Source: Planctomycetota bacterium (lineage in GTDB: Bacteria; Planctomycetota; MHYJ01; JACPRB01). From it: a stretch of DNA of 36,922 nt. Position numbers and translations under genes: made by a program. Shown one piece after another: positions 9,440 to 15,414 of this stretch (the first letter of the stretch is position 1; every line of letters begins with the position of its first letter). The stretch is from positions 1-36,922 of the forward strand of contig DATLZA010000191.1 in assembly GCA_035574235.1 (NCBI GenBank). The letters are read 5' to 3'. Below the pieces are notes generated by a model that searched no databases, was not told the origin of the DNA, and saw nothing but the letters and a program-made list of their open reading frames with translations.

Positions 9440-10420
9440 CTACGACGCCGCCGGCGGCGCGCTCGGCGCCTCCGCCGCGGGCCGGTGCTCGTGTTCGCAG
9501 CGCAGCGCTTCCGTCTCTCCGACCTCGAACTGGAACGTCGCGTGATTGATCTCGTAGCGCTCGTCGAGCAGCCGGCGGAGGCGCCGCGAAAGCTCCTCGG
9601 TCCGGGAAACCGGGGCGTCTTCCGCCAGCCGCACGTGCGCCGTCAGCGCGTACATGCGCGACGTGATCGTCCAGACGTGCAGGTCGTGGACGTCGAGCAC
9701 CCCGGGAACCTCGCGCATCGCGCGCCGGATCTCCTCGAGCTCCATATGGTGCGGAACCGACTCCAGCAGGATCCGGAAGGAGGACTTCAGCAGCGACAGG
9801 CACCACGCCACGATGAGGCCGCTGATGAGGACCGCGATCAGGGGATCGGCCGCCCTCCACCCCAGAAAGTGCACCGCGCCCGCCGCCGCCAGGACCCCCA
9901 CGGAGGTGGCCGAATCGGCCAGCATGTGGAGGAAAGCGCCCCGCACGTTGAGATCGTGGCGCGAGTGCCGGTGCAGGATCGCCGCGCAGGCCACGTTGAC
10001 CGCCAGGCCGAGCGCCCCCACGACAAGCGTCCCCAGGGCGTCGATCTCCACCGGCCGCCGGAGCCGGTCGATCGCCTTGTAGATCATGTAGCCGGCCGCC
10101 GGCAGGAGACTGATCCCGTTCAGGAGGCTGGCCAGGATCTCGATGCGCCAGTACCGGTACGTCTTGTCCGGCGGGGCCGGCCGCAGCGCGATGAGGATCG
10201 CCGTGTAGGACAGGGCCACCGCCAGGAAGTGGCTGAGCATGTGGACGGCGTCGCCGAGAAGCGCGAGCGACCCCGTCAGGAACGCGCCGGCGAACTCGGC
10301 GGCCATGGTGCCGCCCGTCAGCACCATGACCCAAAAGAGCCGCGCGCGCTCCCCGCCCCGGACGGAGCGGTGGAACACCCCGCTCTCCGAGAGCTTGGGA
10401 TGGTGGTGGAGCTCGGGCAT
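9440..10420 (-). CDS. CDF-family divalent cation exporter (CzcD/ZitB-like)
   Basis: This is 326 residues from the ATG at 10420. Members are inner-membrane proton antiporters exporting Zn2+ or related metals. Six predicted transmembrane helices include the metal-site motifs GDAVHMLSH in helix 2 and HMLADSATS in helix 5, and a histidine patch (HRHSRHD) marks the cytosolic loop. The C-terminal cytoplasmic domain contains VHDLHVWTI, typical of CzcD-like proteins. The N-terminal HHH and C-terminal HEH tails may bind metal. It is convergent with the histidine kinase, 11 bases apart. A TAGGAT box lies 11 bases before the start. Metal specificity cannot be read from sequence. Confidence 0.92.
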   Translation of the reverse strand: MPELHHHPKLSESGVFHRSVRGGERARLFWVMVLTGGTMAAEFAGAFLTGSLALLGDAVHMLSHFLAVALSYTAILIALRPAPPDKTYRYWRIEILASLLNGISLLPAAGYMIYKAIDRLRRPVEIDALGTLVVGALGLAVNVACAAILHRHSRHDLNVRGAFLHMLADSATSVGVLAAAGAVHFLGWRAADPLIAVLISGLIVAWCLSLLKSSFRILLESVPHHMELEEIRRAMREVPGVLDVHDLHVWTITSRMYALTAHVRLAEDAPVSRTEELSRRLRRLLDERYEINHATFQFEVGETEALRCEHEHRPAAEAPSAPPAAS

Positions 10421-10518: not shown

Positions 10519-10544
10519 GGAACACCCGGCCGCGGCGCGTCGTG
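10519..10544 (+). promoter_or_regulatory. Possible ECF-type autoregulatory promoter (GGAAC-N17-CGTG)
   Basis: GGAAC at 10519-10523 and CGTG at 10541-10544 resemble the -35/-10 pair recognised by many ECF sigma factors (GGAAC with CGT-like -10). It lies immediately upstream of the ECF sigma gene, and initiation would fall at or near the ATG at 10551. The spacing and the last -10 base are approximate, so this remains a candidate. Confidence 0.33.
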
Positions 10545-10550
10545 TAAGAA

Positions 10551-11165
10551 ATGGATCGCAGGGACGAACTGGCCTCGCTGCCCGATCACGAAATCATGGC
10601 GCGGCTCAAGGGCGCGCCGGAGGACCTCGTCATGGAAGGCTTCGAGATCCTGGTCGCCCGCCACAAGAACGCCATCGTCTCGTTCCTCTACCGGTACGTC
10701 GGGGATTTCCGGACCGCCGAGGACCTGGCCCAGGAAACCTTCCTGCGCGTCTTCCGGAAGATCGGGGACTACAACAACAGCGCCCGGTTTTCCACGTGGC
10801 TCTACACGATCGCCTCGAACCTCGCCAAGGACGAATTCAAGCGCCGCGCGCGCCATCCGGCCCGCTCCCTCGACGGCGCGGGCGCCCGGAACGACACGAC
10901 GCGCCCCGTCCCCGAAGTGCGCGCCGACACCACCGAGTCCGTCCCCGACGTGCGGCTCCAGCACGACGAGGCCCGGCAGGCGGTCCGCCGCGCTCTGGAG
11001 CTTCTGGAAGAACAGGACCGCGAGATCCTCCTCCTCAAGGACGTCCAGGGCCTCTCCTACGAGGAGATCGCGCACGTCCTGAACGTTCCCCTGGGGACCG
11101 TCAAGTCGCGCCTCTCCCGCGCCCGCCTGGCGTTCAAGGAAGTCTGGAAGAAGATAGGAGCCTGA
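10551..11165 (+). CDS. ECF-family RNA polymerase sigma factor
   Basis: This is 204 residues. Region 2 (about 32-100) contains YRYVGDFRTAEDLAQETFLRV and the promoter-melting RFSTWLYTIASNLAKD. A charged linker follows, then region 4 (about 143-195) with LEEQDREILLLKDVQGLSYEEIA and the helix-turn-helix VPLGTVKSRLSRAR. There is no region 3, as expected for ECF factors. Two bases separate its stop from the next gene, and the third gene encodes a zinc-finger anti-sigma-type membrane protein, its probable controller. No clear ribosome-binding site precedes the ATG; a GGAAC/CGTG motif upstream could place the transcript start at the codon. Confidence 0.94.
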   Translation: MDRRDELASLPDHEIMARLKGAPEDLVMEGFEILVARHKNAIVSFLYRYVGDFRTAEDLAQETFLRVFRKIGDYNNSARFSTWLYTIASNLAKDEFKRRARHPARSLDGAGARNDTTRPVPEVRADTTESVPDVRLQHDEARQAVRRALELLEEQDREILLLKDVQGLSYEEIAHVLNVPLGTVKSRLSRARLAFKEVWKKIGA

Positions 11166-11167
11166 CC

Positions 11168-11530
11168 ATGAACACATCCTCGGCCGGCTGGTTCTGCTTC
11201 GTCCTCCTGCTCGGAATCGTCGCCGGATTCGCCGCCCGAAGCGGCGAGGCCCAGTCCATCGACAACAAGTCCACCCGCTATCTCGCCGGGGTGGTCACCT
11301 ACGGCCAGTCCACCGACGCGTTCGTCCTCTTCGACACCCAGACCAACCGCCTCGTCGCCTACACGATCGGCGGAAACAAGCGGCTGGAACTCATGGCCGT
11401 GCGCGAGATCAGCTGGGACCTCAAGATGGTCTCCTGGGGCAAACAGGAGCCCACGGTCCAGGAGGTCAAGGACGCCTTCGAACGGGCCGAAAAGGAGAAG
11501 CTCGAAAAGCACGCCCCCGAGAAGAAATGA
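11168..11530 (+). CDS. Small exported protein of unknown function in the sigma operon
   Basis: This is 120 residues. A hydrophobic N-terminal segment (about 6-24) followed by a small-residue stretch at ARSGEAQS looks like a signal peptide cleaved near residue 30. The mature part has a short beta-rich core (YLAGVVTYG, AFVLFDTQTNRLVAYTI) and a Lys/Glu-rich helical tail. I do not recognise the family. It starts 2 bases after the sigma stop and its TGA overlaps the next ATG (ATGA), so it is translationally tied to both. It may be a periplasmic signal or target of the system; that is inference. Confidence 0.75.
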   Translation: MNTSSAGWFCFVLLLGIVAGFAARSGEAQSIDNKSTRYLAGVVTYGQSTDAFVLFDTQTNRLVAYTIGGNKRLELMAVREISWDLKMVSWGKQEPTVQEVKDAFERAEKEKLEKHAPEKK

Positions 11531-14052
11531 ACTGCTCGACGACCCAGCAGCTCTTCTCCGACTACGCCGACGGCGGGCTGCGCCCCGAGGAACGCCGGCT
11601 GCTCGAGGAGCATCTGGCCGCGTGCGGGTCCTGCTCGCGCGAGTTCCGCTATTTCACGGAGTCCCTCCAGGCGCTTCGGGACCTTCCGGCGGTCGAGACC
11701 ACGCGCTTCTTCCTCCCGAACGTCAAGGCCGCCGCGGCCGCGCACCTGCGCGAGAGCGCGGCCGTGCCGGCCGCCGCGGAAACGGGCGCCGTGACCGTCC
11801 TGACGCCCCGGGCGGAGCCTCCGGCGCCCCGCCGCGGGAGGCTGGCGGTTCTTTTCCTCGCCGGCTGCGCTCTGGGGGCGTTCGCCCTCGGATTCGTCCT
11901 CGGCGGGCGCGGGCGCATCCGCGAACTCGAGCAGCGCCTCCGCAGCCTCGAGGCCGCACGCGCCCGCGCGTCCGAAACCCCGCCGCCCGCCGCCCCGGAA
12001 CCGTCCCGCGTCCCCGATCCGGAGACGCTTCTGGCCGAACACGGCCTGGTCCGGGTGGACGGCCAATGGATCCCCAGAACGTATCAGGAAGCCTTCGAAA
12101 AAGGCCGCGTCGTCCTGGGCGGCCGCGTCGTCACCCGCGAGGAAGCGGCCCGTCTTCTCGGGGCGGAGCGGCCCCCGGAACCCGCGCCCGCCCCGGAACG
12201 CCCCGAAAAGCCCGTCCCCAGCGCCGAGGAGATCCTCGCCCGCGCGGGCTACCGCAAGGTCAACGACGTCTACGTGCCGGAGGCGTGGCTGACCCGCTGG
12301 GGCGAGGGACTCGTGCAGGTCGGCGTCAACGAGTGGAAAAATCCCGCGGAGTTCAAGGAGGAGCTCGTCCGGGAACACAACCTCGTCGAGGTCCGCGGCA
12401 AGCTCATGACCCGCGAGCAGGCGGAGGCGCTCCAGGCGCAGCAGCTCGTGCGGATGCCCGACGCCGCCACCGCCGTCAACGAAGTCACCCGCGCCCTCGA
12501 GGGGCTCCAGATCGGCCCTCCCATGCACTACCGGAGCATCACCGTTTACCCGCTCCTGCGCGCCGACCCGCCGCCCCCCCTGGCCGCCGTGCCGCTGCAC
12601 GCCGCCGTGGCCTCCGGCCGCCTGGAGCTCCAGGAGGACCGCCTCTTCGCCCTCCAGGCGCGCAACGATCTCGAGACGGACGTCCTCTTCCTCGCCGGCG
12701 ACGTCCTCACCGGCGGCCGCTGCGCGCGCGTGGTGACGGAAGACACGATCGTCCCCCGCGGCCAGACGGGGCGCGTGCCCGTCTTCTGCGTGGAGCCCGG
12801 CGCCTGGCGCGCGGCCGACCGCTTCGCCCGCGAATCGGGCCACTACGTCGCCCCGCCCTCCGTGCGCCGCGCGCTCGTCCGCGAACAGGGCCAGGGCGGC
12901 CTCTGGGCGCTCCTGGCACGACGCCTCGACCGCGGCCGCGCAGGCCTTGTGGACCTTTTCCGCAAGCATGCGGACGCCGTCGCCGACATCCGCGCCTACT
13001 TCACCGTCCTGCCCGACCGGGAGCCCGCCGCCGTCGGCGCCGCCGTCGCTCTGGGAACGGGCCTGGAATTCGTGGAGGTCTTCCACGATCCGGCCCTCTT
13101 CGCCGCCTGTTTCGACCGGCTCGTCCTCGGCGCGGCGCTGGAGGTTCTCGAGCGCCCCGCGGAGACGCCCGCCCGACCGACCCCCGCCCCCCCCAATTCC
13201 GTCCAGGGCGTCAAGCAGTTCCTCGAAAGCGCCTTTTTCTGGACCTACGAGGCGCGCGAGGAAGGGTACGCGATCCGGCGGGACGAGGCGTGGGCCGGCC
13301 GGGCCCGCCTGGCTCCGGACGGCCTGGCGCACGCCCTCTTCTTTACCTCCGGCCCCGCGGAGATCGATCGCCGCGCGTCCTACGCCGTCCCCAAGGAAAA
13401 GATCGCCCGCGCCCTGATCGAGTTCGAAACCCGCCTGAAGACCCTGGGCCCCGTCCGCCGGGCCTCGGCGCTCCGCGAGATGGCCACCCTCTCCGCCCCC
13501 GAGGTCACCGCCGCTCTGGTGCGCCACCTCAACGAGCCCGACCCGCTGGTGCGCCGAACGGTGATTCAGGAGCTCGGAGCCTCCGGAGATACCCGCGCCA
13601 CGGAACCGCTGCTTCAGCTTCTGGCGCTCAGCCGGGGAGATCCTCTTCTGTTCGCCGAAACGGTCCGCGCCCTGGCCCGCCTGGGGGACGAGCGCGCCGT
13701 GGACCCGCTGCTCCAGCAGCTCGACGCCGGCCCGCCCGAGAACGCCCGGCTGATCGTGCAGTGCCTGCCCGACCTTCTCCTGCAGGTACGCTCCCGCGAC
13801 CCCCTCGCGCGCGCGATCAGCCGGCTCCTGGTGATCTACGAGGCCGCCGAAGGGGTTCTGCGCGGCGAGGCCGTCCCCGATCCGGTCGCCCGGAACGCAC
13901 GCCCCGCGGAGGCTCAGGCACTGGCCGAGGCGGCCCGCGCCGCCCTCGGCCAGGTGGTGGGCCTCGAGTTCGCCACGGCCGGCGGCGCCCGCAAGTGGTG
14001 GAACGACCGCGACAGCCGCGAACGGTTCCTGAAGGAGCGCACATCCCGGTAG
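11527..14052 (+). CDS. Membrane anti-sigma factor fused to DUF6569 (ARPP-1-like) and HEAT repeats
   Basis: This is 841 residues. The N-terminus is a zinc-finger anti-sigma domain (Cys3, then H29xxxC33xxC36 in HLAACGSC). Then come a linker, one transmembrane helix (about 106-128), and a coiled coil with a Pro-rich stretch. Two related short modules follow (GLVRVDGQWIP, GYRKVNDVYVP), then a DUF6569/ARPP-1-like domain (about 325-430) with the characteristic VYPLL, LFLAGDVLTGGR and VPVFCVEPGAW. The C-terminus (about 630-760) has HEAT-like repeats (ALVRHLNEPDPLVRRTV) and ends in KWWNDRDSRERF. The cytosolic finger would hold the upstream ECF sigma factor while the large periplasmic part senses a signal. 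The domain calls come from motif recognition; ATGA overlap supports the operon. Confidence 0.85.
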   Translation: MNCSTTQQLFSDYADGGLRPEERRLLEEHLAACGSCSREFRYFTESLQALRDLPAVETTRFFLPNVKAAAAAHLRESAAVPAAAETGAVTVLTPRAEPPAPRRGRLAVLFLAGCALGAFALGFVLGGRGRIRELEQRLRSLEAARARASETPPPAAPEPSRVPDPETLLAEHGLVRVDGQWIPRTYQEAFEKGRVVLGGRVVTREEAARLLGAERPPEPAPAPERPEKPVPSAEEILARAGYRKVNDVYVPEAWLTRWGEGLVQVGVNEWKNPAEFKEELVREHNLVEVRGKLMTREQAEALQAQQLVRMPDAATAVNEVTRALEGLQIGPPMHYRSITVYPLLRADPPPPLAAVPLHAAVASGRLELQEDRLFALQARNDLETDVLFLAGDVLTGGRCARVVTEDTIVPRGQTGRVPVFCVEPGAWRAADRFARESGHYVAPPSVRRALVREQGQGGLWALLARRLDRGRAGLVDLFRKHADAVADIRAYFTVLPDREPAAVGAAVALGTGLEFVEVFHDPALFAACFDRLVLGAALEVLERPAETPARPTPAPPNSVQGVKQFLESAFFWTYEAREEGYAIRRDEAWAGRARLAPDGLAHALFFTSGPAEIDRRASYAVPKEKIARALIEFETRLKTLGPVRRASALREMATLSAPEVTAALVRHLNEPDPLVRRTVIQELGASGDTRATEPLLQLLALSRGDPLLFAETVRALARLGDERAVDPLLQQLDAGPPENARLIVQCLPDLLLQVRSRDPLARAISRLLVIYEAAEGVLRGEAVPDPVARNARPAEAQALAEAARAALGQVVGLEFATAGGARKWWNDRDSRERFLKERTSR

Positions 14053-14104: not shown

Positions 14105-14120
14105 TGGCATGACGTTTGCT
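14105..14120 (+). promoter_or_regulatory. Sigma-54 -24/-12 promoter for the rhodanese gene
   Basis: TGGCATG-ACGT-TTGCT fits the sigma-54 consensus TGGCAYR-N4-TTGCW; the invariant GG (14106-14107) and GC (14118-14119) are 12 bases apart. It lies in the 80-base gap after the anti-sigma fusion gene. Predicted initiation near 14131 is 2 bases before the ATG at 14133, so the transcript would be essentially leaderless. Confidence 0.7.
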
Positions 14121-14132
14121 TCTCCTCCTGCC

Positions 14133-14678
14133 ATGTGCGAGACGCCCAAAAGCCCCTCCCCGCTGCCGGCCCCTCAAAGCCGTCGATGGCTCCCCCCCAC
14201 GGGCCTCGAGGTCGAATCCCTCCGGCAACACGTCGCCACAGGCACAATCGTTGTCCTGGATGTCCGGGACGAAGCGTCCTTCCGGCGCGGCCATATCCCG
14301 AACGCCCTGCACGCTCCCGATTCGAGCCCCGGCCGCCTCGCCGTCGAAGCGACGCGCCACCCGCGGGTGGCGCTGGTGTGCGACACGGGCAAGATGAGCG
14401 CCCTCATCGCCCGAACGCTTAAGGTCGCCGGAACCGCCGATCCGTGCTACCTCGTGGGAGGTCTCCGCGCCTGGGCCGCCGCGGGCCTGGACCTCACGCA
14501 GATCGCGGAGGACGGCCGGAAACATCGGCGGTCCCCGGAGACGCGTCTTGAGCGAACGACGCGGAGGATCCGGCCCGTGGCCGGCTCTCTCAATCGCCGC
14601 GTCCTTTTCGCCTCGCTGGCCGGCTCGGCGGCGGTTCTCGGCATGGCCCTTCTGTGGGCGCTGGCGGGTCGAACCTGA
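14133..14678 (+). CDS. Membrane-anchored rhodanese-domain protein
   Basis: This is 181 residues. A single rhodanese domain (about 25-130) has VVLDVRDEASFRRGHIPNA and the active-site loop CDTGKMS, with the catalytic Cys in the CxxGxxS arrangement of sulfurtransferases. A basic linker leads to a C-terminal hydrophobic helix (about 157-178), suggesting a tail anchor with the domain on the cytosolic side. An in-frame ATG at 14109 lies inside the sigma-54 element, so the ATG at 14133 is preferred. It follows the DUF6569-containing gene; ARPP-1 domains are named for association with rhodanese-like proteins, which makes the pairing notable. The substrate is unknown. Confidence 0.85.
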   Translation: MCETPKSPSPLPAPQSRRWLPPTGLEVESLRQHVATGTIVVLDVRDEASFRRGHIPNALHAPDSSPGRLAVEATRHPRVALVCDTGKMSALIARTLKVAGTADPCYLVGGLRAWAAAGLDLTQIAEDGRKHRRSPETRLERTTRRIRPVAGSLNRRVLFASLAGSAAVLGMALLWALAGRT

Positions 14679-14691
14679 TCGATGCGGATCC

Positions 14692-15414
14692 TCAGGCCGG
14701 ACCCGCGAGGACCGGAAGAACCTCCCCCGCGCGTCCCTCGAGGAACACGGTGGCCTCCTCGCTCAGCGGCGTCCGCTCCACGTTCACCTCGATCACCGCG
14801 GCGCCCCGCGCGAGCGCCCGGAGGCCCATCGAGCCGGCGGGCTGCACGGCGCCGGACGTCCCCGCCACGATCAGGACATCGCAGGCGTCCACCGCCCGGA
14901 ACGCCCGGCTCAGAAGCTCGAAAGGAAGCGGTTCCCCGAACCACACGACGTCCGGCCGCAGCAGACCTTCGCAGGCGCAGCGGGGCGGAATCGCCGGGAG
15001 CGGCACGCGCCGATCCTCGCGGACCTCGCCGCAGGAACAGCACCGCGTGCGCCAGAGACATCCGTGGATCTCGAGGACGCGCCGCGAACCCGCCCGCGTG
15101 TGGAGCCCGTCCACATTCTGGGTGATGAGCGTGAAACCCGGCCGCCGCGCCTCCAGAGCCGCAAGCGCCTCGTGCGCCGCGTTCGGCCGGGCGGCCGCGA
15201 CGGCCCGCCGGCGGGCCTCGTACCACTCCCAGACCCGCTTCGGGTCGCGCGCGAAAGCCTCGGGCGTGGCCAGATCCTCCGGACGGCGGCCCTTCCAGAG
15301 GCCCTCCGCCCCGCGGAAGGTCGCCAGGCCCGACTCGGCCGACACCCCCGCTCCCGTCAGGGCCGCCACCGAGCGCGCTCCGGCCAGAAGCCTGCGCGCC
15401 TCCTCGAGGCTCAT
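14692..15414 (-). CDS. cobB: NAD-dependent protein deacylase (sirtuin)
   Basis: This is 240 residues. Sirtuins remove acetyl or longer acyl groups from lysines, consuming NAD+. NAD-binding TGAGVSAESGLATFRG, TQNVDGLH and catalytic His in EIHGCLW are present. The zinc module has CCSC and CAC cysteines before LLRPDVVWFGE, slightly compressed compared with the usual CxxC pair. GTSGAVQPAG and EVNVERTPLS complete the fold. Its ATG overlaps the ftcD stop by four bases (ATGA), so the two are co-translated; the functional reason for the pairing is not obvious. Confidence 0.94.
   Translation of the reverse strand: MSLEEARRLLAGARSVAALTGAGVSAESGLATFRGAEGLWKGRRPEDLATPEAFARDPKRVWEWYEARRRAVAAARPNAAHEALAALEARRPGFTLITQNVDGLHTRAGSRRVLEIHGCLWRTRCCSCGEVREDRRVPLPAIPPRCACEGLLRPDVVWFGEPLPFELLSRAFRAVDACDVLIVAGTSGAVQPAGSMGLRALARGAAVIEVNVERTPLSEEATVFLEGRAGEVLPVLAGPA

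Follow-up and report, generated by a model that had tools for sequence, protein, structure and literature searches.

A predicted autoregulated ECF sigma/anti-sigma pair with an ARPP-1 and HEAT-repeat ectodomain in Planctomycetota

What an anti-sigma zinc finger does when it is fused, across a membrane helix, to an ARPP-1 domain and HEAT repeats is the question raised by one gene in a 36,922-nt stretch of a Planctomycetota assembly (GCA_035574235.1, contig DATLZA010000191.1; hereafter the window). To our knowledge, many planctomycete ECF sigma factors have no known signals. The initial annotation had suggested that the fusion protein senses a periplasmic state through DUF6569 and releases the ECF factor encoded upstream, and it had tied the ARPP domain to the rhodanese gene downstream. 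We consider it likely that the locus encodes an autoregulated ECF sigma factor together with a class I anti-sigma factor that spans the membrane and senses through its ARPP-1/HEAT ectodomain. The features on which this reading is built are collected in Table 1.

Table 1. Features of the sigma/fusion locus (positions in the window; residues of the fusion protein)
Feature	Positions	Strand	Basis or remark
ECF-type promoter, GGAAC-N14-CGTCGTGTA	10519..10546	+	Ends 4 nt before the sigma ATG
ECF sigma factor, 204 aa	10551..11165	+	Pfam Sigma70_r2 (1e-20) and r4_2 (1e-18)
Small exported or membrane-anchored protein, 120 aa, family unknown	11168..11530	+	Lies between the sigma and fusion genes
Transmembrane anti-sigma factor (predicted) with ARPP-1 and HEAT ectodomain	11527..14052	+	Single ORF, 841 aa
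Zinc-binding anti-sigma domain (zf-HC2)	11533..11634	+	Pfam; C3 and H29-x3-C33-x2-C36 invariant in 5/5
Single transmembrane helix, residues ~108-126	11848..11904	+	Hydropathy; DSSP helix 111-125
Five beta-hairpin/alpha-helix units, residues 163-306	12013..12444	+	AlphaFold2 secondary structure, unit alignment
ARPP-1 domain, residues 319-606, putative active site degenerate	12481..13344	+	Pfam match 327-585, model, alignment
HEAT-type alpha-alpha repeats, residues 623-839	13393..14043	+	Pfam HEAT_2, model, Foldseek
Rhodanese	14109..14678	Same as fusion	Pfam E = 1e-14; starts 57 nt downstream of the fusion

The reading frame, Pfam, and hydropathy bore out the single ORF, the domain order, and the one transmembrane stretch that had been claimed. 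All three profiles named in the initial annotation were searched and matched above their gathering scores: zf-HC2 (PF13490) at residues 3 to 36 (E = 5.9e-11), ARPP-1 (PF20208, which we take to be the former DUF6569) at residues 327 to 585 (E = 1.5e-36; 126.7 bits against a cutoff of 27), and HEAT_2 at residues 645 to 700 (E = 6.8e-12). An AlphaFold2 model of the whole protein, made with five sequences, had a mean pLDDT of 72.6; four helices were predicted at the N-terminus, where the mean pLDDT was about 80 up to residue 40, and residues ~49 to 163, including the transmembrane helix, were poorly modeled. The short modules that had been called duplicated appeared in the model as five hairpin/helix units at residues ~165 to 304, between the transmembrane stretch and ARPP-1, and a second model covering residues 160 to 610 reached a mean pLDDT of 79.5. 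In Foldseek searches, the C-terminal repeats resembled HEAT-type alphaRep structures, and no PDB structure resembled ARPP-1 or the hairpin units (best E = 0.23). A PDB sequence search with the ARPP-1/hairpin part gave no match.

Among 59 relatives searched, full-length orthologues of the fusion were found only in the four other genomes of the same family (loci L039 to L042), but in every one of them, with 50, 41, 37, and 34% identity and PF20208 scores of 108.7 to 136.2 bits. These genomes are Planctomycetota metagenome-assembled genomes (MAGs), three of the four recorded as groundwater. A contig scan gave no match with the single protein as the query and four Planctomycetota MAGs with the alignment as the query. 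The orthologues in all four genomes indicate that the fusion ORF is more than chance, and the zinc ligands of its N-terminal finger (Hx3Cx2C) are invariant in all five family proteins. The sigma gene lies upstream of the fusion at all five loci (orthologues 62 to 73% identical, n = 4), an order whose recurrence in five separate assemblies rules out an artifact of assembly. The neighborhood proposed by the initial annotation, with a sigma gene, a small exported protein gene, the fusion, and a rhodanese gene, was present in the window as described and was conserved in the family in part: the sigma/fusion pair was kept throughout, the exported protein gene was found at four of the five loci (three of the other four; absent in L040), and the rhodanese gene was found at none of the other four. 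Neither of the outcomes that the initial annotation named as refuting its reading occurred: PF20208 matched, and relatives keep the sigma/fusion neighborhood. The small exported protein had no Pfam or NCBIfam match. Profile searches located distant relatives of it in other families of the class, where at L205, L206, L208, and L210 they adjoin a conserved gene (M..YFSFEDVLGEL...) that resembles a small DNA-binding domain; the small protein was therefore probably recruited into the sigma operon, and it may serve as an accessory ligand or modulator.

ARPP was named for its association with ARG/rhodanese-phosphatase, as stated in its description (PMC9503650), and the rhodanese gene, close behind the fusion and on the same strand, could suggest that the unit includes rhodanese as an ARPP-type ADP-ribose/rhodanese conflict system, perhaps together with a sirtuin, since a SIR2-family gene (14692 to 15327, minus strand) adjoins the rhodanese gene and faces it. 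We regard this extension as highly improbable. The four orthologous loci had neither the rhodanese nor the SIR2 gene, the best rhodanese match in the four family genomes was a remote protein encoded elsewhere (34% identity), and no ADP-ribosylglycohydrolase gene was present among the flanking genes scanned around the fusion. The window locus does not qualify as an ARG-centered ARPP conflict system, which calls for ADP-ribosylglycohydrolase and rhodanese-phosphatase partners. The rhodanese link was thus abandoned, and the gene was not counted as part of the sigma/fusion unit.

In a survey confined to a sample of Planctomycetota MAGs, 86 of 294 genomes had ARPP-1, and the regions read comprised 59 with long or divergent frames and 30 reference loci. 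Outside the family, at least 11 loci (L145, L146, L147, L150, L151, L152, L155, L157, L158, L176, and L186) encode zf-HC2/transmembrane/ARPP-1 proteins, with both domains above the Pfam cutoffs and an ECF sigma gene directly upstream. None of these 11 proteins had a HEAT match, HEAT being found only in the window's family. L154, L181, and L185 were borderline in one domain, L185 having an RseA_N match in place of the zinc finger; L199 has a sigma gene and ARPP-1 without a recognizable in-frame finger, and no sigma gene was found at L153. L150, from genome G060 of another family, is like the window in its collinear finger, transmembrane helix, hairpin, and ARPP-1 order (columns 1 to 595 of the family profile, hhalign E = 4.8e-30), in a sigma factor that is 41% identical, and in carrying the same promoter; it differs in lacking HEAT repeats and in having an intact ARPP-1 site. 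In a profile search of 392 genomes of the phylum, full-length collinear matches were confined to the family, G060, and, more weakly, G007 (L145). The orthologues and the further Planctomycetota loci rule out a fusion unique to the window organism. The earlier statement that no system with this order had been described therefore stands for the literature searched, but the finger/transmembrane/ARPP-1 core recurs across Planctomycetota. A single origin of all finger/ARPP-1 fusions was not supported, as the ARPP-1 tree, which has many long branches, needs six label changes, at least two of them forced by well-supported branches.

From the best-scoring hits, 30 ARPP-1 proteins were taken as a reference, and the positions invariant in them include Q399, R401, C421, E423, R426, W427, Q456, and W460 (window numbering). 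Q399 is lost in all five family orthologues (C, C, Y, F, and H), as is R426, and C421 is kept in three and replaced by Asp in two; Q456, W460, and R401 are kept in all five, and the window protein has Cys421, Glu423, Gln456, and Trp460 intact. The ARPP description requires absolutely conserved residues that include a Cys and a Gln (PMC9503650), and the family departs from this at Gln399, Arg426, and, in two proteins, Cys421; which Gln is meant is unspecified there, and Q456 is a second invariant Gln. In a wider alignment, all eight residues were intact in 1 of 19 fusions, namely L150, versus 49 of 71 other proteins (Fisher P = 4e-7), and Gln, Cys, and Arg together were intact in 7 of 19 versus 51 of 71 (P = 0.007), P values that overstate the case, as the aligned proteins share ancestry, the reference proteins were selected by score, and the 71 include L185, probably another anti-sigma fusion. 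Most of the site is retained in several other fusions, and its loss is not a strict mark of fusion: Gln, Cys, and Arg are all present in 7 of the 14 other fusions, and 20 of the 71 nonfusions are degenerate.

Because much of the invariant ARPP-1 site is gone in the window's family, the domain most likely binds a ligand or a protein there instead of catalyzing a reaction, and the ARPP-1/HEAT ectodomain is probably a sensor, not an enzyme. An enzyme could still serve as a sensor if the substrate of ARPP-1 were an extracellular molecule containing sugar and the sensing event were catalysis itself or a covalent intermediate trapped on Cys421. ARPP was described in 2022, within ARG/rhodanese-phosphatase systems, as a protein predicted to work on sugar moieties, perhaps by forming covalent cross-links through its Cys (PMC9503650); the four residues intact in the window protein and the complete site of L150 agree with this, and the residues kept across the family (Gln456, Trp460, and Arg401 in five, Cys421 in three) would allow some activity. 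We nevertheless think continued catalysis unlikely, as Gln399 and Arg426 are lost in every orthologue and Cys421 is Asp in two. The ectodomain might also be mainly an envelope scaffold, in which HEAT and ARPP-1 bind other proteins, with turnover of the entire fusion, and no specific ligand, controlling the sigma factor. HEAT and hairpin repeats are typical protein-binding modules, and active-site decay is compatible with a structural role, but the stable pairing of finger, transmembrane helix, and ARPP-1 with an ECF sigma factor across the phylum suggests that a signal enters through ARPP-1, which makes a purely structural part rather improbable. On a broader scale, we are evenly divided as to whether these pairs form a phylum-wide ECF sigma/anti-sigma class with an ARPP-1 receptor, derived from an enzyme-like ancestor that stayed intact in some pairs (L150) and elsewhere decayed until only sensing was left, with HEAT repeats added in the window's family.

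The sigma gene is preceded by an ECF-type element with the family consensus GGAAC-N13/14-CGTCGTRTA, 4 to 5 nt before the start codon. Exact equivalents (N13 or N14) were found in the window, L039, and L040; the element has one mismatch in L041 and is degenerate in L042 (GGAAC-N13-CGTCGTTACA). This conserved element would be the sigma factor's own promoter, implying autoregulation. In three family members its -10 part ends 4 to 5 nt before the sigma start (10519 to 10553 in the window), which would fit a leaderless transcript. Eight exact matches with exact spacing occur in the five family genomes, three of them the sigma operons. One more belongs to the window's own genome, as its sole other exact match, and on our reading appears to fall inside a coding gene; relaxed patterns, which matched mostly inside coding sequence in that genome, were discarded. 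The remaining four, which are all of the nonsigma exact matches outside coding sequence, stand 27 to 69 nt before genes for signal-peptide proteins. Two of these are lipoproteins, one of them with a CAP domain; another is related to the operon's small exported protein (19 bits to the profile of that protein), and the last belongs to the 3-keto-disaccharide hydrolase family. Small as these numbers are, they suggest a cell-envelope regulon in some relatives.

From the domains, the sigma linkage, the conserved promoter, and the loss of site residues, all read from sequence, we infer how the pair would bind, sense, and release. The N-terminal zinc finger would hold the sigma factor in the cytosol, and a single helix would cross the membrane, so that the hairpin modules, ARPP-1, and HEAT repeats would face the periplasm and perceive an extracytoplasmic signal or partner, ARPP-1 most likely by binding it. 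Release would follow from regulated proteolysis by a site-2 protease, for which the window's genome has candidate M50 genes, or from a conformational change. The freed sigma factor would then transcribe its own operon from the conserved element and, in some relatives, exported-protein genes as well. This is the best explanation because zf-HC2, a transmembrane helix, and exported domains stand beside an ECF sigma gene in five of five family genomes and the pairing recurs at the outside loci; because the zinc ligands are invariant and the promoter is conserved even at the distant L150; and because the promoter matches outside coding sequence lead into signal-peptide genes, the ARPP-1 site has decayed in the family, and M50 genes are at hand. 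Against it, exact promoter matches are few and the other match in the window's own genome appears to fall within a coding gene. The periplasmic ARPP-1 sensor of an ECF factor, as first proposed, is thus retained as the best reading, with conservation in its support.

In kind, the pair is a known type of switch with what appears to be an undescribed class of sensor. It resembles the class I (ASDI) anti-sigma factors RsiW, RseA, and RsiV in its N-terminal Hx3Cx2C domain, its one transmembrane helix, its predicted extracytoplasmic C-terminus, and the neighboring ECF sigma gene, but unlike in the known members, the ectodomain consists of ARPP-1 and HEAT. PF20208 was added to Pfam after release 31.0, so that the survey of class I anti-sigma factors could not have seen an ARPP-1 ectodomain. 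That survey, which used Pfam 31.0, established class I anti-sigma domains with group-specific ectodomains (PMC7406223). RsgI of Clostridium thermocellum, in which outside sensing domains control a cytosolic sigma factor, works in the way proposed for the window fusion, and unlike the fusion it controls SigI, not an ECF factor. The sensor domains of RsgI are carbohydrate-active or carbohydrate-binding modules. They are extracellular, and RseP cleaves within the transmembrane helix, as reported (PMC12203970). With ARPP-1 proteins the fusion shares a homologous domain in which core Gly, Arg, Gln, and Trp positions are kept, and it differs from those described in serving as a putative anti-sigma ectodomain and in the key residues lost in its family; the ARPP description (PMC9503650) places ARPP-1 near genes for ARG/rhodanese-phosphatase, HIRAN, WYL, or deacetylase proteins. 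Our literature search found nothing on DUF6569 or on ARPP-1 as an anti-sigma factor, and no paper joining ARPP-1 to class I anti-sigma domains. Together with the similar pairs across the phylum, the locus points to an undescribed way for planctomycetes to sense the cell envelope or their surroundings. ARPP-1, so far proposed as an ADP-ribose- or sugar-processing enzyme, would be placed in envelope signal perception, and the recurrent ectodomain, the autoregulatory motif, and the graded loss of the site give a handle on what some ECF sigma factors sense.

Some further observations were made along the way. A large group of loci (L165 to L173, L182, L198, and similar ones) encodes transmembrane-anchored ARPP-1 with a degenerate active site and without a recognized anti-sigma domain, several members belonging to one family (f64). 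The window's own genome has a second ARPP-1 (L142, 1904 to 2917), a stand-alone lipoprotein with its site residues intact, and the gene after it carries a cytochrome-c-like heme motif (CVLCH). Divergent to the sigma operon lies a CDF cation-efflux gene with an N-terminal His run (9440 to 10420, minus strand); it is likewise found upstream at all three of the other family loci long enough to tell, and it may share a regulatory region with the operon.
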